From contig JANQMN010000099.1 in assembly GCA_028280065.1 (NCBI GenBank), positions 31,541 to 95,540 on the forward strand: 64,000 nucleotides of DNA, given 5' to 3'. A model generated the notes under the pieces. The model worked only from the letters and a program-made list of their open reading frames with translations. It was not told the DNA's origin and did not search any database. Both the position numbers and the translations under genes were made by a program. Source of the stretch: Hahella sp. GTDB taxonomy: Bacteria > Pseudomonadota > Gammaproteobacteria > Pseudomonadales > Oleiphilaceae. Of the stretch, positions 9,101-26,307 are shown piece by piece (within the stretch, counting starts at the first letter, position 1; each line of letters begins with the position of its first letter).

Positions 9101-10894
9101 GGAGATCCATTACCGGTCTCCCTGTCGGATTCGTCGAGTAACCGTTTACCTCCAGGAAAGCACATTGTTTACTGGGAAGCAGAAGATGCCAATGGTGAAA
9201 CCGCGACGGTATCGCAAATCGTTAATGTGAATCCCATCGTCAGTTTCAGCAAAGACCAGTCAGCAGTAGAAGGTACCACGGTATCCTTTAGAGTGATCCT
9301 GAATGGTGAGGCAGCGACCTATCCGGTGACCGTCCCCTATAGCGTTGAAAGTGCTGCTAGCACTGCCAGCTCTGGCTCGGATCATAACCTTGTTTCTGGT
9401 GTCGCCACTATTCAGTCTGGCACAGAAGCAACCATTTCGTTCGATGTTCTGACTGACGATGAATTCGAGCAAACCGAAACCATCGTTGCCAGGCTGGATT
9501 CAGCGACCAATGCGGTTGTGAGTAGCAGTAGCAAACGTCAGATAGTGTTTTCTATCGTCCAAGGGAATGTTGCACCGGAGATCGTGCTCGAAGTGAGTCA
9601 GAGAGGTGAGTCCCGTCTTACAGTGGCGCAGGATGAGGGGGCTGTGATCGTCAATGCTCAAGTCTCCGATCTGAATACCAATGATGTTGTTTCGGTGGAA
9701 TGGACAGCTGATGGACTGGTCGATACGTCCAGTAGCGACCAAACCTTCGTTTTTGATCCCGCTTCGGTCACAACAGGTATTTATCAGGTGACGTTGTTCG
9801 CTGCTGATGATGCCAATCCTATCGCCACTAATATCAGTGATGTGTTTATTGAGGTTATCGATACCTTTGCTGTGTTGAGCGATGTGATTGACACGGACGG
9901 TGACCTGATTCCGGATGACCAGGAAGGTTATGCCGATGCGGATGGGGATGGAATTCCCGATTATCTGGATGCCATTAACGAATGTAATGTGATGCCATAT
10001 CAGGCGCAAACTCAGGATGAATTCCTGGTGGAAGCGGACCCTGGGGTATGCATGCGAAGAGGGTCGATTTCGGCGCTAAACTCATCGGATGGACTAGAAG
10101 TGTTGCCAGTGACCGACGCTGCAGCCAGCTCTCTAGAAGCACAAAGTGGGCTTAAACATCTGCCATTTGAATATGCAAGTGCCTTGGAGCAGGTGACTAC
10201 GGATGAATACAAATTTAGCAGTAATCTTGTGGATTTCAGAGGGACAGTCTCCACCTTTGGCCAGTCCATGAGTGTGGTATTACCGCAACGCGTTCAAATT
10301 CCTCAAGAGGCGGTGTACCGGAAGCGCATTGACGGACTTTGGCAGAACTTTGTGGTTGACGACAACAATGCACTGGCGTCAGCCCCTGGTGAAAAAGGCA
10401 TCTGTCCACCTCCAGGAGATGAGGCATTCACCGAGGGGCTCACTGAAGGCCACTGGTGTGTGCAGTTAACCATTGAAGACGGTGGCGTGAATGATGCTGA
10501 TGGCAATATCAATCAGTCCATCGATGATACGGGCGGGGTAGCAACACTTGTTGTCGCACCAGAGCCTAAGTTAACACCTATTCCCTTAAGTCAAACCGAG
10601 TACGAATTTGGCACTGGAGAACAGACGGTGTTGGCGTTCTTGGTCACTACCCAGGCAGCAGGCGCGGAGCTGCGAGAACTGGTCTTCAGAGTTAGTGGTG
10701 ACGTCGATCCGATGGCAGATATTGGCATCATCGGATTGTATTCAGATAGCAATGGAGATGGCATAGCCACCGATGAAACGCTGCTGGCAGTGGGCGTTCC
10801 GGATGTCGATACCGGCCAGGTAACCTTTACCCTGGAAACGCCATTAACCTTGCCTGCTGGCGAAACTCGCTTGTTAGTTACCTATGAATTCTGA
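173..10894 (+). CDS. Giant secreted repeat protein: N-terminal VCBS/FG-GAP repeats, Ig/cadherin-like, tandem-95 and He_PIG-type repeats, Ca-binding D-rich segment and choice-of-anchor-like C-terminus
   Basis: Continuous ORF 155-10894; likely start at the internal Met MHKVNF (173) preceding a signal-like segment; repeated DxDNDGDxD motifs, (A)NDD...DED...VLDND...YTPxxxFxGxDSFTYTV repeats, and DTDGDLIPDDQEGYADADGDGIPDYLD near the C-terminus. Confidence 0.85.
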   Translation: MHKVNFRCNQKSKLPVFKKTIISAAISTILIGTASANGTFVNRIGSNNPFNGITGPMGTGTTLGDVDNDGDLDLLVGFFGNPRLLQYHENTGSASSPTFSSTPSTILTGLSSSSAKPSGSSDTGFIVPNFADLDNDGDLDLIFTDSSGSGTSPITYYRNDLIDGGTTNSAPSFSSFTPSGLPTTTGQSWGVVRSTDIDLDGDDDVIVVDGKPGNATLFLNNGSGSFSSSTFPDFKKSDGTTDATFEYPVYAFSDIDGDSDLDAIVGEFILDRSGCSTLCYFENNGTNFIERAVGETALEAFFNSPSSSDFPNDLEWPFVSIVDLDDDGDLDLVVGDYQSSGNETIRYLRNESVSVSSLSPVDDATGVSTSASFSITFTSAVTPQTGKSLTIKQVNDNSTVATLSSSDLSGGGTTTISFTPSGLSAGVAYYIQWDLGLFQDSSTADVIGISDLDFWNFTTLVGDITPPAFDSAPAASSVAATSFNIDFSLDEQGTVFAVAVPDGESQPSVAQVFAGQKNDGSAAASNSGASNSAVSGTSPFTSSVSLTGLSAGLTYDVYVVAQDDEDTPNQQATVTAVANVTTTTDTDSTISAGPGSEASALATIIDTVGEETQLFDFSLNDAGTSDGIATTVTALSIPVSGTSTDSERALVVWTLDGPDASSVAGSYDAGSDVINFASLSISVADNTSETYSISGYFNDNFSSADLVDGSTYILSIGDTGITEGPGSTFTTSSTNSGSGFATNVTATALSFTTEPDSTIASGSNFSMQPKVSAIDARGNVDVDYNQTVTLSGGDGTLTGILSVGTSGDGVADYSGIGYSSASDADANFAITATGSGLTAGTSNTINPDVVATKFIYDTEPAPTSISSGVPTAFTQVPVVHALDADNILDTGFTGDITLSIVDTGGTSLTGGHTVNSFSSTADPDGGGQTEVTQAASGGIATFDGLTLQYTVSGANDVFDIRATGSVTAVNSTAITAIINNAPAFAGLNGNPSHTEGGSAVVLDADVTISDVELDALNATAGNYSGATLAISRNGGANTNDVFAGSGLLSNLTQAGALTYNSLNVGTVTTNSGGTLLLTLSDGSNTPTTSIVNSIMQAITYSFAGDDPPASVTLDWVFNDGTSNSSGTNQTVVDITAVNDPPTDISVSSTTINESSTGTTTNIATLSATDADDTPTAFSLVTADTAGNGDCGTTSVNDADNADFAISGTDLQSATALSAGAYEICIQVSDEDAGGAETFEKTFTITIADDVAPVLAEVTAVPDPTTDSTPSVTFSSTEAGTIIVGGDCNSAATSAVVGNNTITLDSDGAGGALLDGNSPFNCTITVEDTDTNQSTPLSLTAFSVDTTAPTLDTGNSLPADNTTNVAVTDTILLSYDENVLLGNGETITLFNVSNNATLEIFTASSTTAATGSDGGNISVNAVEITITPGSNLPAGTNLAVQYGASSVTDTAGNTANAVSSNTAYDITTLPQLSIAVSPTTITETAVVATYTVTLEDDDGDPFPADGNVTMTTTIDGGSSATGGGVDYNLAGTTSGGSFQIDSGQSTNTFTVTSVDDGQTGESPETVIVNISGPGGNAFISSTSSATLTISENQLPDLAGSVPAADTINEDETTSIDLSAVTLTDGDDTSGTLTFAVDSGTVSSGVGNSGGVTVTGSGSASMELAGDFTDIVTYLDNANAVQVTSAKDSTAAITLTVTPNDGTSDGAAENMTITVTPVNDNPTLVSTFDAEFDFDNTTGTLSNTDTRYSQTVSGVTMTVDIDSGTWTNDNSGGGGSTDDSIYTGAAGPTSVTFGFDSSITVNSFYQFVVGAADGGTFTYAAGGSTTDATETGANIASGVTISPSDWTNVTGFTVTNNGGAFNPAFDTLSYSAALNLPTFLTFVEETQGNVDLSAFIFEDVDNATITVTLNVTGGTFGAPASGAGQTVTETQVSPTSITLQGSPANIGTYLDTASNITFTGDTDVQGTGAGSLTILANDGTSGDVTLTTLSLNITNVNETPIANDDTGVTTDEDVPLAIGVLDNDSDSDGTIDATTVAVASGPTNGSTSVNPTNGQITYTPDANFNGNDSFTYTVEDNEGSTSNAATVSVTINPVNDPPTAVSDSQTIVEDSGLNIINVLDNDVDIDSTINTGSLAIATQASNGTAALNGTTLRYQPNSNFTGSDTFTYTVADNEGAVSDPGSVTITVTALNDNPVARDDSDALPEGTSKDLIILANDSDVDGTIDPATVEIVTQPESGSVVVSDSGLATYTPNAGYTGLDSFTYTVKNTEGVTTNVATVNLAIDSTNVAPEVADDTATVDEDSAITISVLDNDTDTDGTLDVASLTIISQPASGDVTIDEDKVTYTPAENFNGFDEFSYRIADNDSATSIATVSMTITPVNDPPVANDPLTLASVGELYSFTYNPSDIDGDTLTLSSKTLPAWLTFAAETGLLSGTPSAENLGDNSVILSVTDGTESIDTEFILVVSEADGNGDNTAPEISGVPQTTVEEGSTYSFVPTATDADGDTLTFSIENQPSWAGFNTATGALTGTPTSADVGLTTGIVISVSDAEATSSLAAFSIEVLAPNAIPVANSPLTLTASVGAIYSFTYVATDADADDILTLSAPTLPDWLEFNDQTGELFGTPEQSDVGTHPVVLEVTDGEATVSTTFTLQVVDPNVDPNNNAPVPNRPETLTVNVGEVYSFTYSATDVDVEDTLTYSALVLPDWLDFNTQTGVLSGTPAESDIASHQVSLQVTDDTETVTTSFTIQVFPSVDPGNNAPTGQVQINGTAEQNQTLTVNTDSIADPDGLGDFSISWMRNGVITGATGTSYVLTQADVGSTISVVVSYVDGAGTTESLTSAATLTVTNVNDAPSGSVTISGDNVEGSILTLNAVLSDLDGLGNFLYQWQRNGKSIPGATGDTYTLSSEDVGKSIKVVLSYTDQQGTIESITSNQTEQIIPAESQNEPPTITPPEEVTVNATGLFTPVDLGVANAVDANGDPLPVSLSDSSSNRLPPGKHIVYWEAEDANGETATVSQIVNVNPIVSFSKDQSAVEGTTVSFRVILNGEAATYPVTVPYSVESAASTASSGSDHNLVSGVATIQSGTEATISFDVLTDDEFEQTETIVARLDSATNAVVSSSSKRQIVFSIVQGNVAPEIVLEVSQRGESRLTVAQDEGAVIVNAQVSDLNTNDVVSVEWTADGLVDTSSSDQTFVFDPASVTTGIYQVTLFAADDANPIATNISDVFIEVIDTFAVLSDVIDTDGDLIPDDQEGYADADGDGIPDYLDAINECNVMPYQAQTQDEFLVEADPGVCMRRGSISALNSSDGLEVLPVTDAAASSLEAQSGLKHLPFEYASALEQVTTDEYKFSSNLVDFRGTVSTFGQSMSVVLPQRVQIPQEAVYRKRIDGLWQNFVVDDNNALASAPGEKGICPPPGDEAFTEGLTEGHWCVQLTIEDGGVNDADGNINQSIDDTGGVATLVVAPEPKLTPIPLSQTEYEFGTGEQTVLAFLVTTQAAGAELRELVFRVSGDVDPMADIGIIGLYSDSNGDGIATDETLLAVGVPDVDTGQVTFTLETPLTLPAGETRLLVTYEF
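350..1190 (+). repeat. Five VCBS/FG-GAP-like Ca-binding repeats within the giant protein
   Basis: DVDNDGDLDLL, DLDNDGDLDLI, DIDLDGDDDVI, DIDGDSDLDAI, DLDDDGDLDLV in order. Confidence 0.8.
6165..7325 (+). repeat. Four tandem-95-type repeats, about 290 nt each, within the giant protein
   Basis: Recurring NDD..DED..VLDNDxDxDGTIDxxTVxI..YTPNxxFxGxDSFTYTVxDNEG units. Confidence 0.8.
7310..8440 (+). repeat. He_PIG/cadherin-like repeats (about four) within the giant protein
   Basis: Recurring VGxxYSFTYxATDxDxxDxLTLSAPxLPDWLxFNxQTGxLxGTPxxSDVGxHxVxLxVTD. Confidence 0.75.
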
Positions 10895-10904
10895 GGAGAG
10901 AAAA

Positions 10905-11126
10905 ATGAAAATTTTGTTCAAAGGAATCCTGCTCAGTTTTGGTTTTTTGCTTCTGGTATCCTGTGGTGGCGGTAGTAGTTCTAATAACGATGATGAACCG
11001 GAACCACCAATCGAAAAAACCTTTAGTCTGCAATTAAAGTCCGCTGATATTCGGCTTAGTAGTAATGGCGAGGCGCTATCAGTGGATACCGACGAGGTGA
11101 AAAGCGGACAGTTAACTGTACGCTAA
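10905..11126 (+). CDS. Small lipoprotein, hypothetical
   Basis: MKILFKGILLSFGFLLLVSCGGGSSS signal peptide with lipobox; ORF overlaps or abuts the giant gene; short, may be a truncated gene. Confidence 0.55.
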   Translation: MKILFKGILLSFGFLLLVSCGGGSSSNNDDEPEPPIEKTFSLQLKSADIRLSSNGEALSVDTDEVKSGQLTVR

Positions 11127-11155
11127 TCGAAGAAGAAGTGGCGACCTATCCATTT

Positions 11156-11174
11156 GGTGCCCTAACAGGGCACC
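11156..11174. terminator. Hairpin downstream of the lipoprotein gene, possible terminator
   Basis: GGTGCCCTAACAGGGCACC, 8-bp stem; no strong T tract. Confidence 0.3.
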
Positions 11175-11265
11175 GTACTTCATTTCCACCTACCTATTCC
11201 CGACTATAATTAAATGATTCTCTATCCAGGATAACACCCCAGTTCTGTGAAAAGGGAGGAATACT

Positions 11266-13620
11266 ATGGCCAATATCCTCACCAGAACACTATTAATCTT
11301 TTTACTCGTGAGTAACTTCAGCACCAACGCTGCCGAGCTATCTACTTCCAAGCAAATCCAGCAACTATATATCGCGTATCTTGGCCGTGCCGCCGATCCC
11401 GCAGGTCTGGAATATTGGACCGGCGAGGTCGATGCCGGGCTAATCACCTTAGACCAGATCCGCGTTAACCTGGTGAATGAACAGCCGGAATATTTGGAGA
11501 ACTACGGCCAGCTCTCCAATTTTGATTTGACCAATAAGGTCTATGAAAATCTTTTCAACCGCGAAGCGGATGTCGCGGGTCGGGATTATTGGGTCGGTCA
11601 GTTAGATGCCGGGTTGGTATTGCCCGACCAACTGATCATTGCCTTTATCAATGGTGCTTCGGAAGCAGATAAGGTCGTCGTCGCCAATAAACTTTTTGTT
11701 GCCGAATGCTATACCAATAATACTTCTGCCTATTCTGATGAATGGGTGGAGCAACTGTTAACCCAACAAGGCCCGGATGCTGCACTCGATACCTGTCCGG
11801 CTGGAGATTCCGGGGCTGCCGCCAAACGATTTGGCATGGAAGTCGATTCAGAGGAAGTCGCGCTCGATCCCGACGCTTTCTTCAGCAATGCCGCTGCCAA
11901 TGGTATCAACTGGGTGAGCTTGGAAATTTTTACCTTAGACGGCTTAACCCTGCTCGATACGCCTTTACTGACAGACGCCGGGTTTAGCCTCGATACGGAT
12001 TATGGCAATGTTTTCCCGGTAATGCTGAACGCGGCTAAAGCCCACGATATTGAAATTGTGGTGATGCTGGAGGGCATTGGCCATATCGTCGATAACCAAA
12101 AACCTTATGACCCGGTTATTGAACCGGACAAGCTGACGCCAGAAATGGTTAGCGACTTGATTGTTGAAATTGCTTTCCAGGCGCAGCAGGTTGGCGCATC
12201 GGTAGGTGTATCCGAAGAAGCCTTTTCCGAAACCTATATCGACGCGATTGACCAGGCAACAGCCGCGAATATGGTGGAGTATACGCATTTTTTCGATGAT
12301 CCTGCCTGTCGCCCCGACGTACAGTTGTCGGAGGATTACGCCTACTATCCGCGAGATGCGACAAATAACCAGGAGGATAAAGATTATCTTCGGGAGATTA
12401 ATGAACTCGCCAGTTATCTGGGCCAACTAGGACATCTTGATATCATGTTTGGTACGGCTGAATCCTGTGGCGCTGAAAGCGGCGTGGCGACAGCGGGTGG
12501 TTGGGGCTTTGGGGCAAAGACCCACCAAAACATCGCCTTGCTCCGCGCTATTCAATTTGATCCGAAGCTTTATGTATACATCCTGGCGGAAGGTGATGAA
12601 GGGGCAATTTTCCCGGAAGAGATTGATTACATAGACAATTATGATTTCGGCCAATCACTAGTCCCGCTTATTGATGAATTTGGGCAAAAACCCGGTGACA
12701 TCGATAAACCGCTTGCCAATCTGGTTTTGGAAACTCCTTCGGCGGATGCGCCTGAAGATGTGCAGGACTTTTTCAATATTGCCCGACTATCCGGTTCGGT
12801 AATCACCTCTTCCATGCTGGCGGCTGGATTCGATCTCGTGGTGACGGATACTCCCGTTGAAAGTGCGGATCTTTACTATGTGTTGACGGCAGGCGACGTA
12901 TTTGGCGAGAGTGTCGATATGGGCATTGTAGCAGCGAATCTTGTCGATGGTGACACACCGGTCTTTTATCAGATTGTTGGCGCTGCACCTGAAACGGCTA
13001 ATTTTGCCAAAGTTTTTACTGCCCTTGGCTTCGATTCCATTCCTTTCGCAATTGGCAATGAAAATGACTTGTCGACGTTTGAACCGATCCCGGAGTTCGT
13101 TAGCGTTGATTTTGCCAATGGCACAGAACTGATCCGATATGCGGGCTATAGTTTGGAACTCTGGGACATTAACCAGTCGGGTGAATTCACCTTGGGTCAT
13201 TATGTGCACTTGATATCCCCGAACGATGTTGCCGAGGGAACGGAAGTTCTGTATTCCGCTAACACTTCTGCAGATGATGATGGCCTGTTTGATGATGAAA
13301 TCGCTTTGCTGCTCCGCAATGGCCAGGTGCATTTAATCAATGGCGGCTATATTCATCACGCCATGACGGGTCCGCTTGCCAATCTTATGGCTTCACAACC
13401 GATTTATAACAGCGAGAGTTTTGGCTATCTGACTTCCGGACCTGACCGAACCGCATTTTTTACCCCCTATGAAACCGCAATTGATATCAATCTGTTGGGA
13501 GGTAGTCAGGTAACGCAGTTTGATGCGGACGGTAGTCGGCTGACGACGCCGACGGTAGCCATTCAGGGTAATCGGCTAATCGGCACGGTGGGTAAGTTCC
13601 ACTTGGTGGTCGTGAATTAA
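11266..13620 (+). CDS. Secreted protein with N-terminal DUF4214 repeats and a large uncharacterised C-terminal region
   Basis: Signal peptide; IQQLYIAYLGRAADPAGLEYWTGEVDAG and NKVYENLFNREADVAGRDYWVGQLDAG are DUF4214-like; the remaining approx. 600 aa not recognised. Confidence 0.75.
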   Translation: MANILTRTLLIFLLVSNFSTNAAELSTSKQIQQLYIAYLGRAADPAGLEYWTGEVDAGLITLDQIRVNLVNEQPEYLENYGQLSNFDLTNKVYENLFNREADVAGRDYWVGQLDAGLVLPDQLIIAFINGASEADKVVVANKLFVAECYTNNTSAYSDEWVEQLLTQQGPDAALDTCPAGDSGAAAKRFGMEVDSEEVALDPDAFFSNAAANGINWVSLEIFTLDGLTLLDTPLLTDAGFSLDTDYGNVFPVMLNAAKAHDIEIVVMLEGIGHIVDNQKPYDPVIEPDKLTPEMVSDLIVEIAFQAQQVGASVGVSEEAFSETYIDAIDQATAANMVEYTHFFDDPACRPDVQLSEDYAYYPRDATNNQEDKDYLREINELASYLGQLGHLDIMFGTAESCGAESGVATAGGWGFGAKTHQNIALLRAIQFDPKLYVYILAEGDEGAIFPEEIDYIDNYDFGQSLVPLIDEFGQKPGDIDKPLANLVLETPSADAPEDVQDFFNIARLSGSVITSSMLAAGFDLVVTDTPVESADLYYVLTAGDVFGESVDMGIVAANLVDGDTPVFYQIVGAAPETANFAKVFTALGFDSIPFAIGNENDLSTFEPIPEFVSVDFANGTELIRYAGYSLELWDINQSGEFTLGHYVHLISPNDVAEGTEVLYSANTSADDDGLFDDEIALLLRNGQVHLINGGYIHHAMTGPLANLMASQPIYNSESFGYLTSGPDRTAFFTPYETAIDINLLGGSQVTQFDADGSRLTTPTVAIQGNRLIGTVGKFHLVVVN

Positions 13621-13745
13621 GAAATGGTTTTTATTGCCTTTGAGTTAGTGGTCTATCGGAAATACTCTGCGTTAGGCAAATATTGGGTTCCTCTTGAAAG
13701 GGAAATCAGTCGCGCCCCTGCTTTGCTGCAGGAGCGCAAAAGTTT

Positions 13746-14813
13746 TCAACCCTCCAGTTTTAGTTTTTTGTACTGGCGAATATGCCGGCTGATATCCTTG
13801 CCCCATTTTTCCCTGGCCTTTTTCCGCTCAAACTTCGTTTGACTGGCTTGATCGGCTTCCGCTTGCAGTTTTCGATAGCTCTGCCAACGGCGCAGTTCCA
13901 GATTCCCGGATTCAATAGCGGCCTCGACGGCACAGCCTCTATCTCCGGAGTGCCGGCAGTTGTTGAATTTACAGCCCGTCATCAGTTCCTCGATATCGCT
14001 GAATAGCGCTGAGACACCTGCCGCATCGTCGTTTAGCCGGAGTTCCCGCATGCCTGGGGTATCCAGTACCCAGCCGCCGTCGGGAATACGAAACATACAG
14101 CGGTCGGTGGTGGTATGGCGTCCCTTGGCATCATCTTCGCGAATTCCCTGTGTTGCCTGGCGCTGCTGTCCGAGCAGTGCATTGGTCAATGTGGACTTCC
14201 CGACGCCGGATGAACCCAGGAATGCAATAGTTTGCCCAGTCCCTGTCCAAGGTGATAACAGTTTTGGAATATCCCCCTGTAACGCATCCACTTTTAGGAC
14301 CGGAACATCTCTATGCAGGCGTTGCGCCTGCTCGATGTATTGATCCGCATTGTCGGTTAAATCGGCTTTGGTCAGTAAGATGACGGAGGTTATGTCGGCG
14401 GCCATGACAAGGCTTAAATAGCGTTCCAACCGTGAAAGATTAAAGTCCTTGTTACAGGAAGAAACGATAAATAGCGTATCAATATTGGCCGCGATTAACT
14501 GGGTATAGGCATTGGTGCCGGCGGCAGTTCTCTGCAGCAGATTAATGCGGTCCAATAGCCGTAAAGGCCTGTCAGTACCCTGCTCCATCCATAGCCAGTC
14601 GCCTGTGGTCGGCCGGAATTCCGTGTCCTTTGCGGCCATCGTGCCGGAAAGACCAATCTGTCTTCCACCCGTTGTAGTGGAGATATGCAGCTGGTCGCGG
14701 TAGACAGCATCGACTCGTGCGGCAAAGCCTGTTTCCAGCTCTTCCAGCGTAACTTGCTGTTGTAAAAATGGGCGCCATCCCAGTTCGGGCAGCGTAAATT
14801 TTTGATTACTCAA
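13746..14813 (-). CDS. rsgA: Ribosome small subunit-dependent GTPase A
   Basis: 355 aa; GSSGVGKSTLTNAL P-loop in circularly permuted GTPase order, RHTTTDR, DTPGMREL, C-terminal Cys/His zinc segment CKFNNCRHSGDRGC. Confidence 0.9.
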   Translation of the reverse strand: MSNQKFTLPELGWRPFLQQQVTLEELETGFAARVDAVYRDQLHISTTTGGRQIGLSGTMAAKDTEFRPTTGDWLWMEQGTDRPLRLLDRINLLQRTAAGTNAYTQLIAANIDTLFIVSSCNKDFNLSRLERYLSLVMAADITSVILLTKADLTDNADQYIEQAQRLHRDVPVLKVDALQGDIPKLLSPWTGTGQTIAFLGSSGVGKSTLTNALLGQQRQATQGIREDDAKGRHTTTDRCMFRIPDGGWVLDTPGMRELRLNDDAAGVSALFSDIEELMTGCKFNNCRHSGDRGCAVEAAIESGNLELRRWQSYRKLQAEADQASQTKFERKKAREKWGKDISRHIRQYKKLKLEG

Positions 14814-15149
14814 TGGTTTAACCCTTCAGTAAAGTAGTACTTCGGGTTATGTAAGGCATAACCCAGTGAATTAGACTGATCTAATTACCGGGGAAAGAAA
14901 GGAGAGAATTGGTTGAGGTTAGGAAGTAATTTAGTGAATCGACCTATGAATTCTTACCGTTCTTTCACCGGTGTGAACACATCATCTACAAACGTCATAG
15001 TTGGTCTCCTCTGAGATATGATAGAGCCCTAAGTCTGCGCCTAGTGCGTTTAAAATTCAAGCCCCTGGATTCTGTCCAATAACAATCGGCTATTCTTCTA
15101 TAAGAATGTGAAGTAGTCTTTTACGCGAAATGTTTTGTCTTGGGAACCG

Positions 15150-15443
15150 ATGAATACCGTTAGAGAATTTTTCAGCGTCATTCTTTTTGCCGCTGGCGTT
15201 TTTTTACTCTTGCAAATTCTGACCGATGGATTTAGCTGGGTTTATGTTTCGGGCAGCGCTGTCTGTTTTGTCTTGGCATACCTTATATGGCCAAGTAAAA
15301 AACGTGGTCAACGTCAGGAGTCTAACTGGTTTCTGGATATACTGGAGTTTGTTATTGAGTTACCGATTGAAATTATCGTGAACTCCTTTCGATTGTTGGC
15401 AAGACTGGTTAAGAGTAAAGACGGTTTTGACATTGATCTCTAA
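15150..15443 (+). CDS. Small membrane protein, hypothetical
   Basis: ORF with two hydrophobic segments (FFSVILFAAGVFLLLQIL; VYVSGSAVCFVLAYLIW). Confidence 0.5.
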   Translation: MNTVREFFSVILFAAGVFLLLQILTDGFSWVYVSGSAVCFVLAYLIWPSKKRGQRQESNWFLDILEFVIELPIEIIVNSFRLLARLVKSKDGFDIDL

Positions 15444-16082
15444 GCCCAATTGATCCACCAACGGCGGTAAGGATTATTCCTTCCTACTAAAACTCGTCTG
15501 CCCCTGGATTGGCGTTATCATAATCGTCTGCTTGAAATGTTTTCTGAGTATTCTTTCGGAACCAGAACCTGATAATTCAGCTCTAGCTGTAATAGCTTCC
15601 CCCATTTATTGTTTTCCTCTTCTAGAAACTGAGAAGGTTTTGCAGCGGAAAGACACCATTTAGCATAAACAGTATGGTTCCCGCGATCAGCACTCTGGAA
15701 GAAATATACGCACATAACTCAATAAACTTTATCGTAACTTTTTTCATAACTGGCTCCGGAAAAATATCTTATATGCCAACTCTTGCAAGGGTTAATCCGG
15801 AATTTCGTGTCGAGTGAACGGTGTCACTCAATTTACGAGAGCGGGTTCACTAAAATTCTAGCTCAAGACTCGTGGGGAGAAGCTTATCTTATTGAAAAAT
15901 ATGAAATATTTACGAATGTAAAATGTTTGTTAAATGCAGGTTTTGCCTGGTTAAGAAATTATCTGGCGTTGTGATCTAGTTAAAAAACTACCACTTTTTG
16001 TCTCTCAGGTGACCCAGATGGTCCATTGCCATGGCGTAGCGCCATGTTAATCAAAGAATGTTACAGCAGCGCCAGATGCCGT

Positions 16083-16751
16083 TTACTCGTCGCTCGATTG
16101 GGAATCTTGCTCGCGTTTATCCAGTTGGAGTCGCGATGCCAATATAACTGCCTGGGTGCGATTGGTAACATTGAGGCGGCGAAAAATATTGGTCATGTGG
16201 GCTTTCACCGTAGCTTCCGTTATTCCAAGCTCATAGGCAATTTGCTTATTTAACCAGCCTTCGGCCACATGGCATAAGACTTTGTATTGCTGAGGCGTTA
16301 ATGAAGCAACCCGGTTGGCAAGTTCCAATTCTTCGGCATCCAGCCGGCGCAGCCGATTGCGAAATGAATCCGGCAGCCACTGATCGCCCTCCAGAACTGC
16401 ATTAATTGCCGTTGTGAGTTGTTCTGAGGTTGCTGATTTGGGGATGAAGGCTGCTGCTCCATAACCCATTGCTTTACTCACCACTTCCAGTTCTTCCGTG
16501 GCGGAAACGATGGCAATCGGTAGACTGGGAAACTGCTGGCGCAGAGATGCCAAGCCATATAACTCATAGCTTCCCGGCATATTGAGATCCAACAGTAAGA
16601 TATCGGTATCCGAATGATTACCTAGTGCTTCGAGTGTTTCCTCAAAGTTTCCGCTCTCGATGATAACCGCTTGATGAAAGGACTTTTTCAAGCGACCTAC
16701 CAGAGCTTCGCGAAAGAGCGGATGGTCGTCGGCAATGATGAATTTAGTCAT
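16083..16751 (-). CDS. LuxR-family response regulator (CrbR/ErdR-like)
   Basis: Receiver domain (ADDHPLFREAL, LLLDLNMP) and LuxR HTH (LTPQQYKVLCHVAEGWLNKQIAYELGITEATVKAHMTNIFRRL); likely start MTKFIIADD; lies just downstream of acs on the same strand. Confidence 0.85.
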   Translation of the reverse strand: MTKFIIADDHPLFREALVGRLKKSFHQAVIIESGNFEETLEALGNHSDTDILLLDLNMPGSYELYGLASLRQQFPSLPIAIVSATEELEVVSKAMGYGAAAFIPKSATSEQLTTAINAVLEGDQWLPDSFRNRLRRLDAEELELANRVASLTPQQYKVLCHVAEGWLNKQIAYELGITEATVKAHMTNIFRRLNVTNRTQAVILASRLQLDKREQDSQSSDE

Positions 16752-16877
16752 AACGGCCTGAGTTGTTATTTTCCTGAAAGCATATATCAGAGACTGGGTA
16801 TCGTCCATGACACCCGGGCAAATAAATGCTTAACACGACCAGCGGGACTTTAAATACTTTTGGTTGTGCCGCCTTCT

Positions 16878-18818
16878 CTATACGGCCATGCGCTGCTCTA
16901 TCAGGTCATCAACGACGGATGGATCGGCAAGCGTTGAGGTATCGCCAAGTTGATCGGATTCGTTACAGGCAATCTTGCGCAAGATCCTGCGCATGATTTT
17001 ACCGGAGCGGGTTTTCGGTAAACCGCGGGTCCATTGAATTTGATCCGGGGTGGCAATTGGACTCAGCTCCGTGCGGACTTTCTTAATCAGCTCTTTGGTT
17101 AGTTCGTCGTTAACCGGAATGTTCTCCCGAGGGGTGACGTACACATAAATGCCTTGCCCTTTGAGATCATGAGGGAAACCAACGACGGCCGCTTCGGCGA
17201 TACTCGGATGCGCGACCAAACAACTTTCTATTTCAGCAGTGCCCAGACGATGACCGGCGACATTCAGTACATCGTCCATACGGCCGGTGATCCAGAAATA
17301 GCCGTCTTCATCCATCCGTGCGCCATCGCCACTGAAGTACATTTCTTCGAAGGTACTGAAGTAGGTTTGTTCAAAACGCGGATGATCGCCATACACCGTG
17401 CGCATTTGGCCCGGCCAGGAATCGAGAATAACAAGAGCGCCCTCTGCCTGACCCGCCAGGAGTTTACCTTCGGTATCCACAAGAGCAGGACGGATACCGA
17501 AAAACGGACGGGTAGCAGATCCTGGTTTAAGCGGTGTTGCGCCAGGCAGGGGCGTAATCATGACACCGCCGGTTTCCGTTTGCCACCAGGTATCAATTAC
17601 CCGGCAGCGATTATTACCGAACTTGTCATTAAACCAATTCCAAGCCTCCGGATTAATCGGTTCTCCGGCAGTTGCCAATATCTTTAAGCTAATTCTTTCG
17701 CTGCTGGCGATGGCTTCGTCGCCACTGGCCATCAGAGCGCGAATTGCGGTCGGAGCAGTATAGAAAGCGTTGACTTGATACTTGTCGACTATCTCACCGA
17801 AACGACCGATGGTCGGATGGCTGGGAACGCCCTCGAACATCACGTTGGTCGCGCCGTTTAGAAGCGGCGCATAGACCACATAGGTGTGGCCGGTAATCCA
17901 GCCGACATCGGCTCCGCACCAGTACACTTCGCCTGGTTGATAATCGAAAATGTATTGATGGGTGATTGCCGCATATACCAGGTAACCACCGGTAGTGTGC
18001 AGGACACCTTTGGGTTTTCCCGTGGAACCGGAGGTATAAAGAATAAAAAGCGGATCTTCGGCATTCATTACTTCCGGTTCGCAATCTGTACTTTGGGTAC
18101 TGACCAACTCGGAGTAACTCAGGTCGCGATCCGAAGTGGCTACCTCAGCGCCGGTATGCTCTACCACCAGTACTTTTCTGACGGTATCTGTTCCGCGCAT
18201 GTCGAGAGCAAGGTCGACATTGCGTTTCAGAGGTACGGTACGGCCGCCGCGCAACCCTTCATCGGCGGTGATCACCATCGACGCCTCGCTGTCTTTGATC
18301 CGATCGGCGATGGCATTGGGCGAAAATCCGGCAAAAATCACCGAATGAATTGCGCCGATGCGAGCGCAGGCCAACATGCTGAATACCGCTTCCGGAATCA
18401 TTGGTAGATAGATAATTACCCGACCGCCTTTTGAGACGCCTAATGACTTAAGTGCATTGGCCAGCTTGCAGGTTTGCTCGTACAGTTGCCGATAGGTGAT
18501 GGTTCTGCCTTCGCCCGGAGAATCCGGTTCCCAATGAAACGCTACCTGGTCGGCTTTCGCTGGGAGGTGCCGGTCAATACAGTTGTAACAGGCGTTGAGC
18601 GCGCCGTCTTCGAACCATTTGATACTCACCTTACCTCTGGTGAAGGAAGTATTTTTTACTTTGGCGAAAGGTTCATACCAGGATATTCGCTGAGCTTCGC
18701 GGCGCCAGAAAGCATCAGGATCGTTGACGGATTCCTGATATAAGCGCATGTAGGTTTCTTGGTCGAGAGTGGACTTCTCTGCGGCATTGTCTGTTGTTGT
18801 ATTGAGCGCGACGGACAT
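16878..18818 (-). CDS. acs: Acetyl-CoA synthetase
   Basis: 646 aa; [42 protein letters not shown]. Confidence 0.95.
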
Positions 18819-20422: not shown

Positions 20423-20591
20423 TACAACAGACAAATAGAGCACAGTATGGATTGTAAGAACAAAGCCTACAAAGGAACTGGAATAAATCACGACAAAGAA
20501 GACTTTGTCGGCGAGCGATTTAAGTATCTACATCGATGGCAATGGGTGCTGAGGTTAGTGATAAGTCTTGGTGTTTGTTGATTCCACAGTA

Positions 20592-20671
20592 ATCGATTCT
20601 GGCAATCAATAGCTCACCAGAGCGAGGAAAAATCCCAGTAAGCGCCCTGATGTTGACCTGGTTGGTAGCAA
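20592..20671 (-). pseudogene. Fragment of a histidine phosphatase-like gene (partial copy of 25795-25874)
   Basis: 74/80 nt identical by eye to 25795-25874; minus-strand translation TNQVNIRALTGIFPRSGELLIARID. Confidence 0.8.
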
Positions 20672-20792: not shown

Positions 20793-21059
20793 ATGGCAGC
20801 ATCACGAATAGATATGCGGATTGATGAAGAAATCAAATCAGCCGCAGAAAAGGCCGCAGCTCTTAAAGGCATGAGTAGCCTGACTGAATATGTGGTGCGT
20901 TTGATCGAGCAAGATGCACGGAAAGTTATTAAAGAGCACGAATCCATTAGGGTAAAAGACGATATCTTTGACCGCTTTATGAGCGCGTGTGCTGCCGCCG
21001 AAGCTCCTAATCAGAAACTTCGTGATGCAGCGGAGTTTGCCAAAGGAAAAGGCTTTTAG
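20793..21059 (+). CDS. tacA-like: DUF1778 (TacA-like) antitoxin
   Basis: MAASRIDMRIDEEIKSAAEKAAALKGMSSLTEYVVRLIEQDA; directly followed by a GNAT toxin. Confidence 0.85.
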   Translation: MAASRIDMRIDEEIKSAAEKAAALKGMSSLTEYVVRLIEQDARKVIKEHESIRVKDDIFDRFMSACAAAEAPNQKLRDAAEFAKGKGF

Positions 21060-21590
21060 GTGAAACCCGGTGAAAACTTCGAAGAACTTGATAAGTCCCG
21101 TCATTTGCGCAAGAGGTTTGATTGTGGTCGGAAGGAACTAAATGACTTCATTCGGCAATCTGCTGCCAGACATCGAGACGCTGGCATTAGCAAAACACTG
21201 GTATTGCCAACACTTGCAGGCGAAGACGAAAAAGCAGATATTTGCTGCTTCTATACCCTGTCCCATACCGAGATAGAACGCGAGACGCTTCCCAAACCAT
21301 TAGCCAAGAAACTGCCCCGTTATCCTATTCCCGTCATGTTGATTGCGCAGCTCGCCGTTCATACAGAGGCGCAAAGTCAGGGGCTTGGCAAAATCACACT
21401 GATACAAGCTTTAAAACACTGCCTGGAAATCAATAAGCATTTGCCTTCTCATGCGGTTGTAGTGGATGCACTTGATAAAGGAGTCCAGGCATTTTATGAG
21501 CAATATGGCTTTAAAGCTCTCGATCATCATGGTCAGGGGCGTGTGAGACTATATTTACCCATGAGCACAATAGCAGAACTTTTTTCTTAA
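21060..21590 (+). CDS. tacT-like: GNAT-family (TacT-like) toxin
   Basis: GTG start right after the antitoxin stop; CGRKELNDFIRQSAARH, IAQLAVHTEAQSQGLGKITLIQAL, FYEQYGFKAL. Confidence 0.85.
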   Translation: MKPGENFEELDKSRHLRKRFDCGRKELNDFIRQSAARHRDAGISKTLVLPTLAGEDEKADICCFYTLSHTEIERETLPKPLAKKLPRYPIPVMLIAQLAVHTEAQSQGLGKITLIQALKHCLEINKHLPSHAVVVDALDKGVQAFYEQYGFKALDHHGQGRVRLYLPMSTIAELFS

Positions 21591-21688: not shown

Positions 21689-21842
21689 ATGAGGCTAACT
21701 TTTTTAATATTGCTTCCTCTGTTTTCTGGCTGCGAAACTATCAGTTCGCCAAGTAATTCTAGTTATCGTTTTGCGAGAAAAGCTTGATATAGATGTAAAG
21801 GCTGAAAAATTCATAGATGACTATTTCAACCATGAAGAATAA
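21689..21842 (+). pseudogene. Frameshifted short lipoprotein ORF in a cassette
   Basis: MRLTFLILLPLFSGCETISSP...SYRFARKA* then in another frame LDIDVKAEKFIDDYFNHEE* ending just before the attC-like site at 21845. Confidence 0.45.
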
Positions 21843-21844
21843 TG

Positions 21845-21905
21845 GCATAACAAGTGCATCAACTAGGACGCTCCTTACGTCGTGCATGTTACGCAAGCGT
21901 TAAGC
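21845..21905 (+). other. attC-like recombination site A
   Basis: GCATAAC...GTTAAGC ends; arms AACAAGTGCATCAAC / GTTACGCAAGCGTT and inner GACG/CGTC stem; cassette ORF starts 13 nt later. Confidence 0.75.
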
Positions 21906-21917
21906 ACTCAGAGATTT

Positions 21918-22325
21918 ATGAGAACAACCATAATAATATTTACTGCTGTGTTCATTGCTTATTTAATGAAGCAATTGTCCATACCTGGTGGAATAGTTTT
22001 AGTCTTCGGTGTGTTTATAGTTTTTTACGGCATCCCGACTTCAATGTCAGTTCATGGGCAAAAACGATTTTGCGATAGAATTAAATTATGGATGGAGCAA
22101 AATGGAATTGCGTCAGAATATGCATCTTTGCAGACGCACATGCTTACTAAAGGTAAATTGGGGTGGAAAGCATCAGATATTCAGTTGATTTTCAGTCTAA
22201 GACATGAAGGTTTAGAGTATTGGTTTGCTTGCGGTAGTTGGTGGTTCGGTGTTTACAACAAGGAAATTTCTATTTACCAGTATGCCGATAATAAGCTCAA
22301 TTTTGTGCAGAAAATCAGTGCTTAA
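21918..22325 (+). CDS. Cassette-encoded hypothetical membrane protein
   Basis: MRTTIIIFTAVFIAYLMKQLSIPGGIVLVFGVFIVFYG...; lies exactly between two attC-like sites. Confidence 0.6.
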   Translation: MRTTIIIFTAVFIAYLMKQLSIPGGIVLVFGVFIVFYGIPTSMSVHGQKRFCDRIKLWMEQNGIASEYASLQTHMLTKGKLGWKASDIQLIFSLRHEGLEYWFACGSWWFGVYNKEISIYQYADNKLNFVQKISA

Positions 22326-22379
22326 CCAGAATTGGCTGAGCGAAGCTCGTTCCTCGCTCTCCAGCAATTGGCGTTATGC
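22320..22379 (+). other. attC-like recombination site B
   Basis: GCTTAAC...GTTATGC ends; arms AATTGGCTGAGCGA and TCGCTCTCCAGCAATT pair with offset bases. Confidence 0.8.
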
Positions 22380-22440
22380 TACCGAATGTTGCTCAATTTT
22401 CTTGTAATAGATTTTTAACTTTTAAAAGGGAGTTCTGAAA

Positions 22441-22704
22441 GTGCACCGAATTCACAAAGAAAGAATGTATTCTGCTTTACAGAGATTTTTCTTAGCGATG
22501 GCGCTTTTTTTTAATTTTCTACTGATAAAGGCAATAATCAATTTTGACAATTCTCCCGATGACAAAACGCTTACATACACAGTTCTGGCAGTATTAGTTT
22601 TGTTAGGTACATCATTTAGTTACGGGTATTGGCGGATGAGAAGAAGAAGGAAGCATGCCGTTAACGAAAACGATATACCATGGCACCAAATGCACAACGA
22701 TTAA
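22441..22704 (+). CDS. Cassette-encoded small membrane protein
   Basis: GTG start with AGGGAG upstream; two hydrophobic segments; lies after site B. Confidence 0.55.
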   Translation: MHRIHKERMYSALQRFFLAMALFFNFLLIKAIINFDNSPDDKTLTYTVLAVLVLLGTSFSYGYWRMRRRRKHAVNENDIPWHQMHND

Positions 22705-22903
22705 CCGATTTAATTTGGACTTCCAGCTATTCAATTTGCACCGTAACGTGTTTAATTGGGGTCGGAGTAATTTTATACTTTTCCTGACGATAATCAGCGG
22801 GGCTTTTGCTATTCGTTATTTGGAGCATATTAGGGGACAGACCACGTTTTTTGCCATAGACTCACGGAGACTGCGGATTACAAATTTAAATTTACACTGA
22901 CCC

Positions 22904-24410
22904 GAATGGCACTTACTTAAGCTTTTTGGGGTGGCCATTTTTACGGATTTCCTCTCGTGCTTCAGCCCTGGATTTGGTTAATAAGGGATACGCCTTTGGC
23001 CTTCTTTTTATGGACCGAGGTTCTAGTCTTCCAGGCCGATGACCGACAGTTTTCCCTGACATTAATAGCAAGATCTGAGTTAACAATTCATCGTTCATTT
23101 CCACCATCAATTGCAGTGAGTGCTGCCAAAGCTGAAGGCAATGTTTGAAGCTGAGTTGACGAGGTTGAATATCTGCTAACTGGGCCGAATGAGCCATTAC
23201 GTGGCGCAACAGGTTATATGCAAGCAGATAGACCCAGATTTCTTTCAACATCATCCCGGGAGTTTTACAACTCAACACATTCATCCCCAGGGTGTCTTTA
23301 ATATTTCGGATATCCAGCTCGACGTGCCAACGGCTCCTGTAGAGTATTTTTAACTCATCTTTGGGATAAGCTTTCGGACACAGCAAGGTCGTGATGAGTA
23401 CTTTCCCAGCCGCCTTAAACTCTCTTATAGTCAAGGATTCCGGCAACTCTTCAAACTGTTCCCGGCTCATCCAGTCAGGCTGAATTTTAGGTTTGTTGAT
23501 AATGATGAGGTGGTCCTTCTCTCCTAATTTCCTGCCTTTTCTGAAATCGGTGACTCGTTTCCTGGCTCCCTGTTGCTCCATGAGAACATCGACTTGTTTT
23601 GCCTGCATGTCAGCCAGGAATGTATAGGTGGCAAAAAATGCATCTCCCATGACAATATCACCAGACTGAAAGCGTCCCTGAAGGGTTCGTAACAGTGTTT
23701 GCTCATCGCCTCCCTTGCCCTGGAAGCGGCCAATGGCGGCATCGTATAAAGCACCGCTTGAGAGGTTGGTTATACCGACGATTCGACAAATAGGAAAACC
23801 CAGACCTGGCTTTTGACTACCCTGTTGAGGATAGGCAGCCTGATTCTCCGGGGTATCCGGCATCGTGATCGACGTGCCATCCACCAGAAAAACACGGCGA
23901 TCACGCCAGAATCTGTTTTGCGGCTTACCCACCCGGGTTCTTTGGTTCACCCAAGAAGCGGGTCAGGTTTTGTACCATCTCCAGAGGCAACCGTTGTCGT
24001 GCCCGACAATACGCTCCTGTTAATGTACTACCCACCGTCAGGCCCTCTCTTAGCCGTTGCACAGCAATTTGATGACAACGTTTTGACAGGACCGGTCCTC
24101 ACTCATAGCCTGGGCAAGAAACATCGAGAGTGTTTCCGTGGGAGGGTAAAGGCGCTCTCTGTGTTCTGGCAGGCACTTTTCAACTTCATTTAATAGTAGA
24201 TCATCCGTCAACCAGTTGAAGAGTTGATAACTAGAACATTGTCGGCTAATAGAACTGAGACGCTGCTGTTGATGGCGAGCAATGGAAGGGGTAGGATTCA
24301 TGAAGGTCAGGCTCTTTTAGTAGTTGTTATGTTTGGCGATATATATTCTACCAAGTGCCTGGCCTTTTTTGTCTTTATTTCAAATGCTTAGCCTTAAGTA
24401 AGTGCCATTC
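22904..24410. mobile_element. IS4-family insertion sequence, complete ends, transposase frame disrupted
   Basis: Perfect 18-bp IRs GAATGGCACTTACTTAAG (22904-22921) and CTTAAGTAAGTGCCATTC (24393-24410); 11-bp direct duplication TACACTGACCC at 22893-22903 and 24411-24421. Confidence 0.95.
22913..24301 (-). pseudogene. IS4-family transposase broken by two frameshifts
   Basis: N-part 24301-24050 (LYPPTETLSMFLAQAMSEDRSCQ), middle in second frame (QIAVQRLREGLTVGSTLTGAYCRARQRLPLEMVQNLTRFLGE), C-part 23950-22913 (RTRVGKPQNRFWRDRRVFLVDGTSITMPDTPENQAAYPQQ). Confidence 0.85.
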
Positions 24411-24466
24411 TACACTGACCCCATTTATTTCCTGATGGAAGAAAGTTCGAGTTGACAGAGGTGCAG

Positions 24467-24517
24467 CCATAACAAGGTGCGACATTGGTCCTGGGGCCAC
24501 TGCGCAAAGCGTTATAT
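24467..24517 (+). other. attC-like recombination site C
   Basis: CCATAAC...GTTATAT ends; imperfect arms AAGGTGCGACATTGGTCC / GGGGCCACTGCGCAAAGC. Confidence 0.65.
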
Positions 24518-24829
24518 GCCGCTAATGGCGAAGTCCAGCGCATCAATAATGTCTTGTATAAGGTGCGCTACAGAGCCAACTGGCTTTTTAAGTTGTTTTC
24601 TAGAAATGGATGAAATTTGTGGGGTCATTAAAAGTAAGTTTTCGTTGTCAAAACTTAAGCTAATTTGTAGTCTGGTCATAGCCTCGTTGTTAAATAATTC
24701 AGCCTTTCCCAAAGGAATCACTATCCTTGTCTCAAGTTCGGAAATATAGTTGTTTTGAATATCGACTAAATATGGGTAGTAAGCGCTGCTTTTTTTGCTA
24801 GGGTTTTTGTAAACATCAAATTGAGGCAT
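24512..24829 (-). CDS. ccdB: CcdB-like toxin
   Basis: MPQFDVYKNPSKKSSAYYPYLVDIQNNYISELETRIVIPL; overlaps the antitoxin stop region. Confidence 0.9.
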   Translation of the reverse strand: MPQFDVYKNPSKKSSAYYPYLVDIQNNYISELETRIVIPLGKAELFNNEAMTRLQISLSFDNENLLLMTPQISSISRKQLKKPVGSVAHLIQDIIDALDFAISGI

Positions 24830-25074
24830 TAAAAGCTCCTAAACTCATCGCCAAAGCATCCATGCTCTTCTATAAATTCGTTGTATGCTTTAATGGCCTT
24901 TTTATTGTCCTTTGCCCACCTTTCTGCCTCAGCTTTTGATAGTTCATTAATTAATGCTTTTTCTAAAGTCGCTGACAGGTTTATATTCATGTTTCGCGTT
25001 CGTTGCAATAAATCACTATTAACGCTAAGGTTGGTTGGTTTTTTAGGTGCGGTGGTGTCGTATAATTGCTGCAT
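24829..25074 (-). CDS. ccdA: CcdA-like antitoxin
   Basis: KKPTNLSVNSDLLQRTRNMNINLSATLEKALINELSKAEAERWAKDNKKAIKAYNEFIEEHGCFGDEFRSF. Confidence 0.9.
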   Translation of the reverse strand: MQQLYDTTAPKKPTNLSVNSDLLQRTRNMNINLSATLEKALINELSKAEAERWAKDNKKAIKAYNEFIEEHGCFGDEFRSF

Positions 25075-25128
25075 AATTATTCACCAATATATATGAGTAT
25101 ATACGCATTAGTATACGCATAAAAAAGC

Positions 25129-25237
25129 ATATAACAAGGCGCTGCATAGGACAAAAAACACTTGGCACCTTTCTTGTTTCGCTTCGCTCCCAACAAAGTC
25201 GCCAAGTTTTTTTGCCCATGAGCGCAACGTCATGTAC
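25129..25237 (+). other. attC-like recombination site D (long, VCR-like)
   Basis: ATATAACAAGGCGCTGCATAGGACAAAAAACACTTGGC pairs with GCCAAGTTTTTTTGCCCATGAGCGCAACGTCATGT; right core has GTC instead of GTT. Confidence 0.75.
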
Positions 25238-25249
25238 AGGTAGCAATAT

Positions 25250-25582
25250 ATGGCGAAAGCTGGTTTTATACCGCAGAAATTGAAACCTTGGATTGAAGCG
25301 AGAAAGAGGTATCGACTGTCGCATGCCCAGATACAGATGGCTAGAGAGCTAGGGTTGAATCCAAAGAAATTTGGAAGCTTGGCCAATCACATGCAGGAGC
25401 CATGGAAGCTGTCTTTGCCTACTTACATTGAAAAGTTATATTTTAAGCGATTTAATAAAGATCGGCCCGATGTTATTCGATCCATCGAGCAGATGGTAAA
25501 AGACAAGGCAGCGAGAAAGGCGGAACGAAAAGAAGAACAGGTGGCAGAGACGTCGGTGCCACATTCAACCGAACAAATATAG
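25250..25582 (+). CDS. Cassette-encoded hypothetical protein
   Basis: 110 aa ORF starting about 14 nt after site D; basic, no recognised domain. Confidence 0.6.
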   Translation: MAKAGFIPQKLKPWIEARKRYRLSHAQIQMARELGLNPKKFGSLANHMQEPWKLSLPTYIEKLYFKRFNKDRPDVIRSIEQMVKDKAARKAERKEEQVAETSVPHSTEQI

Positions 25583-25616
25583 GCAAGCGGCACCCAAAGG
25601 CACACCTGCTAAAAGC

Positions 25617-25696
25617 GTTACAGCCACTTTCAGGAAGATTGAGTAGAACCTGCTAACTGCCCTAACCATATGCCGAAACTACTTCCCGCCAATCTC
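25617..25696 (+). repeat. Dispersed approx. 80-bp repeat, copy 1
   Basis: GTTACAGCC..TTTCAGGAAGATTGAG..ATGCCGAAACTACTTCCCGCCAATCTC shared with 38361-38441. Confidence 0.85.
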
Positions 25697-25749: not shown

Positions 25750-26307
25750 TCAATATTCCGTTTCCACCCTGCCGACAACAGTGAGTCCATCATTATCGAT
25801 TCTGGCAATCAATAGCTCACCGGAGCGAGGAAAAATCCCTGTAAGCGCCGTGATGTTGACCTGGTGCGTAACAAGTATCGCAGGCTTCTTAAGATCTTTT
25901 TGTATTAACCAGTTCAAAGTAGCGTTAATTTGTGGTTCCCGATTCTGATAGTTTTGAAAGAAAGAGTTTATGAATGGCTGCTCAATAACTTCCCCAAATC
26001 CTAGTAATTTGGCAGTCTCTAAACATCGGCACCATTGGCTGGAGTACACATCCAGCTCAATGATTCCATTCTGTCGTAGTTTATCGCCAATACTGCGTGC
26101 TTGTTCTCGTCCTGCTTCAGATAAATTGCGTTGTGTGTTGCAGTCGCGAAGTGAAAAATTTGCAGGGTCTCCTGTTCCAGGAGCTAATGCATGGCGCAAT
26201 AAAGCAACGTGTCCAGGCGTATTCAATGTTTGCCAGAGGTTAGTTTCTGCTTGCACCCCTAAGGAGCATAAAAGCAATATAAGCAGAACAAGCAGCAAAC
26301 CTTTCAT
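25750..26307 (-). CDS. Histidine phosphatase family protein, secreted
   Basis: Signal peptide; ALLRHALAPGTGDP, SQWCRCLETAKLLG, ILVTHQVNITALTG. Confidence 0.8.
   Translation of the reverse strand: MKGLLLVLLILLLCSLGVQAETNLWQTLNTPGHVALLRHALAPGTGDPANFSLRDCNTQRNLSEAGREQARSIGDKLRQNGIIELDVYSSQWCRCLETAKLLGFGEVIEQPFINSFFQNYQNREPQINATLNWLIQKDLKKPAILVTHQVNITALTGIFPRSGELLIARIDNDGLTVVGRVETEY

Follow-up and report, generated by a model that had tools for sequence, protein, structure and literature searches.

Five attC sites and a ccdAB cassette without an adjoining integron integrase: a probably stranded and decaying cassette array in Hahella

In IntegronFinder 2.0, two or more clustered attC sites with no integrase nearby are defined as a CALIN, and such clusters hold almost six attC sites on average (PMC9024848). 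CALINs are common (PMC9024848), and so are intI pseudogenes, which make up nearly one third of intI genes (PMC2426708). In the Vibrio superintegron, toxin-antitoxin cassettes carry their own promoters (PMC11023631). No paper on the integrons of Hahella was found in the literature searched. The Hahella cluster described here is an ordinary, typical CALIN and not a new kind: like those already described (PMC9024848), it is small (five sites), with at least two co-oriented attC sites, short cassettes and no adjoining intI, and nothing essential differs, its particulars being two degraded sites and one IS-bearing cassette. Its attC geometry is that of the chromosomal integrons of marine Gammaproteobacteria (Shewanella marina, Psychrosphaera), but those arrays adjoin an intI, whereas this cluster does not. 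A first-pass annotation of the sequence had proposed an integrase-less, CALIN-like cassette cluster at this place, and our analysis agrees, with five attC sites in 3.8 kb and no intI on the 95.5-kb contig.

The window, meaning the whole 64-kb stretch of DNA analysed, corresponds to positions 31541-95540 of contig C14 (95,540 bp) in a genome of 6.68 Mb and 151 contigs (G000). The cluster occupies 53.4-57.2 kb of that contig, with the contig ends 53 and 38 kb away; coordinates below refer to the window unless another contig or locus is named. Because Rfam at gathering thresholds gave no match within the 64-kb window, we made an attC model for this analysis. The reference set consisted of 36 attC sites, all from integrase-linked arrays of other bacteria; a covariance model, R1, was built on 26 of them, none from this genome, and the bit scores given for attC sites come from this model, which is a substitute for IntegronFinder's own attC model. 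A position-specific profile with pairing terms was trained on 27 of the same reference sites and used to score both strands of the window, and 25 dinucleotide-shuffled windows were scored with the profile as a control. Ad hoc core-and-stem scans were discarded, as they produced many chance matches and ranked short sites poorly.

The results revealed five attC sites (S1 to S5) in the same orientation on the plus strand within 3.8 kb (21845-25623), the widest gap being 2.1 kb. S1 (21845-21905; GCATAAC ... GTTAAGC, extrahelical C) scored 29.8 bits with R1 at default settings, 21.1 bits with filters off and 36.1 with the profile. S2 (22320-22379; GCTTAAC ... GTTATGC, extrahelical G) scored 29.1 bits (E = 1.5e-4 in 64 kb) and 28.4 with the profile, and S3 (24467-24517; CCATAAC ... 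GTTATAT, extrahelical A) scored 26.4 bits and 33.7, respectively. These three sites are exactly as first annotated, and the substitute covariance model scores them at 26-30 bits. The fourth site, a long hairpin of 107 nt, is likewise present, but its end had been placed at 25237; position 25235, the last base of the right core GTCATGT, is the better end, so that S4 spans 25129-25235. It obtained the top profile score of the window (45.8) and was not scored by R1, its right core reading GTC rather than GTT. This core is one substitution from GTTATGT, and the site is probably impaired. Where at least four sites had been proposed, a fifth was added: S5 (25568-25623), with a degraded left core CGAAC, a right core GTTACAG and a profile score of 26.4, was matched by R1 at 25572-25619 with 15.8 bits (E = 0.24 over 64 kb, and 0.0023 when 611 bp were searched). 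The top four R1 matches in the 64-kb window were S2, S3, S1 (21.1 bits, filters off) and then S5; over the whole genome, R1 gave at least six matches at E up to 10, with 150 of 1437 candidates scored.

All five sites have a 7-nt core, a 3-nt spacer, a 5-nt L box and one extrahelical base followed by the stem, with one mismatch each in the L boxes of S1 and S3. Arm by arm, this register is the same as in the 36 integrase-linked attC sites, in keeping with the single orientation and the offset bases in the arms that had been pointed out at first. The RYYYAAC and GTTRRRY cores described at the same time are found in part: S1-S3 retain the AAC and GTT triplets and deviate from the consensus at one or two of the outer bases, whereas S4 has GTC in its right core and the left core of S5 is degraded. 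The five best profile scores in the window belong to S4, S1, S3, S2 and S5, in that order, followed by a site at 15.6, and the best score among the 25 shuffled windows was 22.6. With scores of 26-46 against these values, chance is excluded for the five sites. Folding energy, which had been suggested as a check, set S4 apart (single-strand z = -5.3) but was not discriminating for S1-S3 (z = -0.6 to -1.8); compared with shuffles, it separated neither S1-S3 nor two comparison attC sites of the same genome. The unexceptional folding of S1-S3 would suit terminators or repeat elements lying between unrelated small genes. Such a reading is very improbable, since it is contradicted by the layout, the model scores and the shuffles, and since intergenic repeats would resemble each other, whereas these sites have only cores and geometry in common. 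Judged on these features, S1-S5 are genuine attC sites.

The five sites delimit four cassettes, in which stop codons overlap the next attC. The cassette 1 ORF (21918-22325, plus strand, 135 aa) starts 13 nt after S1 and stops within S2; its protein has distant homologues (32-35% identity) on contig C110 of this genome and in one sibling genome, and no attC was found beside either. The cassette 2 ORF (22441-22704, plus strand) lies between S2 and S3 and encodes a hydrophobic protein of 87 aa from a GTG start. The cassette 4 ORF (25250-25582, plus strand, 110 aa) starts 15 nt after S4, and because its stop codon falls in the left arm of S5, S5 closes this cassette. As stated in the first-pass annotation, none of these three proteins belongs to a recognised family, and none of them could be identified by searches with PADLOC (defence), PHROG and PDB. 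The 110-aa protein does have relatives, 57-64% identical, on three plasmids, two from Paraburkholderia and one from Candidatus Megaera; no attC was found nearby at the two Paraburkholderia loci, and this genome aside, the protein was absent from 151 family genomes and 369 class genomes. A plasmid DNA search returned IS and antitoxin matches only, and no cassette of the cluster was found within another attC array.

Cassette 2 is interrupted by an IS4-family element (22904-24410, minus strand, 1507 bp; NF033592, 169 bits) with perfect 18-bp terminal inverted repeats and an intact 11-bp target duplication, TACACTGACCC, at 22893-22903 and 24411-24421. Its transposase frame is split (22913-23950 and 24050-24301), it is the sole full copy found in the genome, and cassette 2 without it measures 620 bp. 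An 18-nt motif before the IS was considered as a multi-copy repeat and dropped, as it occurs once in the genome. The element and its target duplication, S5 and the TacA-TacT pair described below are absent from the first-pass annotation.

Cassette 3, between S3 and S4, consists of ccdBA read against the cassette direction. The ccdB toxin gene (24512-24829, minus strand; PF01845, 107 bits, E = 4.8e-31) has its stop codon inside S3, and the ccdA antitoxin gene (24829-25074, minus strand; PF07362, 108 bits, E = 2.2e-31) overlaps it by 1 nt. Both domains are thus above the Pfam cut-off in one operon, as in a type II ccdAB module, and the pair had been correctly named. Cassettes with a type II module also occur in the Vibrio superintegron (PMC11023631), but here the predicted ccdBA module is opposite to the cassette direction and stands in an array without a platform. 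The ccdAB cassette probably has regulation of its own, and it may act as an addiction module that shields the array from deletion, a stabilising role that we infer from established toxin-antitoxin biology.

Upstream of S1 lies a second toxin-antitoxin pair on the plus strand, a TacA antitoxin gene (20793-21059; PF08681, 74 bits) and a TacT-like GNAT toxin gene (21060-21590; Acetyltransf_10, 30.6 bits). Its membership in the array is uncertain, because no recognisable attC was found on the left side of the pair (20793-21590). Between the pair and S1, a short lipoprotein-like ORF remnant read from the sequence (21689-21843, plus strand), with a broken frame, ends one base before S1; it probably represents the gene belonging to the cassette closed by S1. 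The cluster is also flanked by a 93-nt direct repeat, 88% identical between 20579-20671 and 25782-25874, which represents the 3' end of a histidine-phosphatase gene (25750-26307) and a diverged copy to the left of TacA-TacT; it may mark island edges or an old gene duplication.

To locate integron integrases, we searched the whole genome with TIGR02249 at E up to 10. The absence of a tyrosine integrase from the window, claimed at first, extends to the whole of contig C14 for integron-type integrases. A search elsewhere in the genome had been recommended, and it did yield two intI copies, on contigs C109 and C4, but both are broken. The C109 gene (C109:67294-68124) gave 348 bits over 278 positions; its first 45 codons contain an in-frame stop, TAA, and a change of frame, and the preceding 39 codons lie in another frame. 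This pseudogene (67294-68246) is nearly complete and lies about 0.4 kb from the contig end, and for this reason its array is not assembled. In principle, a complete copy could be hidden in an assembly gap. The C4 gene (about 12.72-13.17 kb) is frame-shifted and truncated after about 140 codons, and adjoins attC sites at C4:11402-11473 and C4:9861-9911. The damage, stop codons together with frameshifts, is the same as in described intI pseudogenes (PMC2426708), with the difference that every intI found in our genus sample is broken or partial. Accordingly, an intact intI with an attI adjoining an array was not found in this genome, all of whose detected intI genes are broken.

Further observations concern these other contigs. 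In the small C4 array (4862-8170 of the extracted locus), the first cassette encodes, by eye, a restriction-endonuclease-like protein of 292 aa, and the first attC is nearly identical to an attC of Shewanella marina. The intI relic of this genome shares 62% identity with the integrase of that species. On contig C146 (946-1017 of the extracted locus), a lone, strong attC (37.9 bits) stands right after a 306-aa ORF that may encode a nuclease; this is one cassette outside any array. The open frames of 317 and 312 aa matched on C96 and C97, respectively, fall far below the TIGR02249 cut-off and have the size of XerC/D.

Taken together, we consider the cluster to be part of an integron cassette array that was left stranded, a decaying CALIN that has neither a platform nor a working resident enzyme, with a probability of roughly 93%. 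Each cassette would once have been a circle with a mostly promoterless gene and an attC, and an integron integrase working on folded attC bottom strands would have linked the cassettes in tandem. The platform (intI and attI) would since have ceased to be next to them, and decay would have followed in place, with one core mutated (S4), one degraded (S5) and one cassette hit by the IS4-family element. Because both recognisable intI genes are on other contigs and broken, the resident enzyme probably cannot move the cassettes. The lack of any attI or intI relic beside the cluster would also be expected had the cassettes been inserted one by one at chromosomal sites other than attI, without ever forming part of a platform-linked array, and off-platform cassette insertion and off-target integrase activity are described (PMC10127599). 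This origin appears unlikely, as five co-oriented sites in strict tandem are more simply obtained if an existing array was broken or transferred.

We also surveyed the seven genomes of the genus. The results showed attC matches in all seven, with clusters in most of them among the loci read, and arrays of up to 20 attC sites in the sibling loci examined (within G001:C1:1481000-1500000). Similar sites with different intervening genes, which the reading of the first-pass annotation would require in related strains, are present in the sibling genomes. An intact intI was found in none of the seven, the TIGR02249 cut-off being exceeded only by the broken C109 gene; in three siblings the chromosome is assembled as a single contig, and no intact intI was found there. 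The intI sequences read in G001, G004 and G006 are relics that are incomplete, carry internal deletions or are interrupted. The 20-site array of G001 (3335-18558 of the locus) belongs to a single-contig genome without an intact intI. Flanking-protein searches in the genus, made to find an empty site, yielded none: no sibling genome has the same locus, and the neighbourhood is not conserved among them.

Segments of the G001 array recur in siblings at 94-98% DNA identity, but with other neighbours and in another order. Because segments this similar have different neighbours among siblings, cassettes seem to have been on the move at an earlier time. Such reordering where no intact intI was found, the intact AAC/GTT triplets and fold layout of S1-S3, and the position of the C109 intI at a contig end would all fit cassettes that are still mobilised in trans, by an outside integrase (plasmid- or phage-borne) or by a resident copy that fell into gaps of the assembly. 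We regard continuing mobilisation as distinctly unlikely for this cluster: two of its five sites have damaged cores, the IS and its split frame remain in the array without having been purged, the known intI copies are broken, and the three single-contig sibling chromosomes lack an intact intI. The stranded array therefore remains our preferred reading, in which the cassettes would now be immobile. For the genus as a whole, it is a doubtful proposition that every intact intI was lost and attC arrays shuffled until recently were kept, with cassettes moved only by visiting integrases.

In summary, the cluster is one more decaying integron array, and the genus survey offers a clean case of attC arrays outliving their integrases (attC matches in 7/7 genomes, intact intI found in 0/7). 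This bears on the persistence of cassette reservoirs and on whether toxin-antitoxin cassettes hold them.
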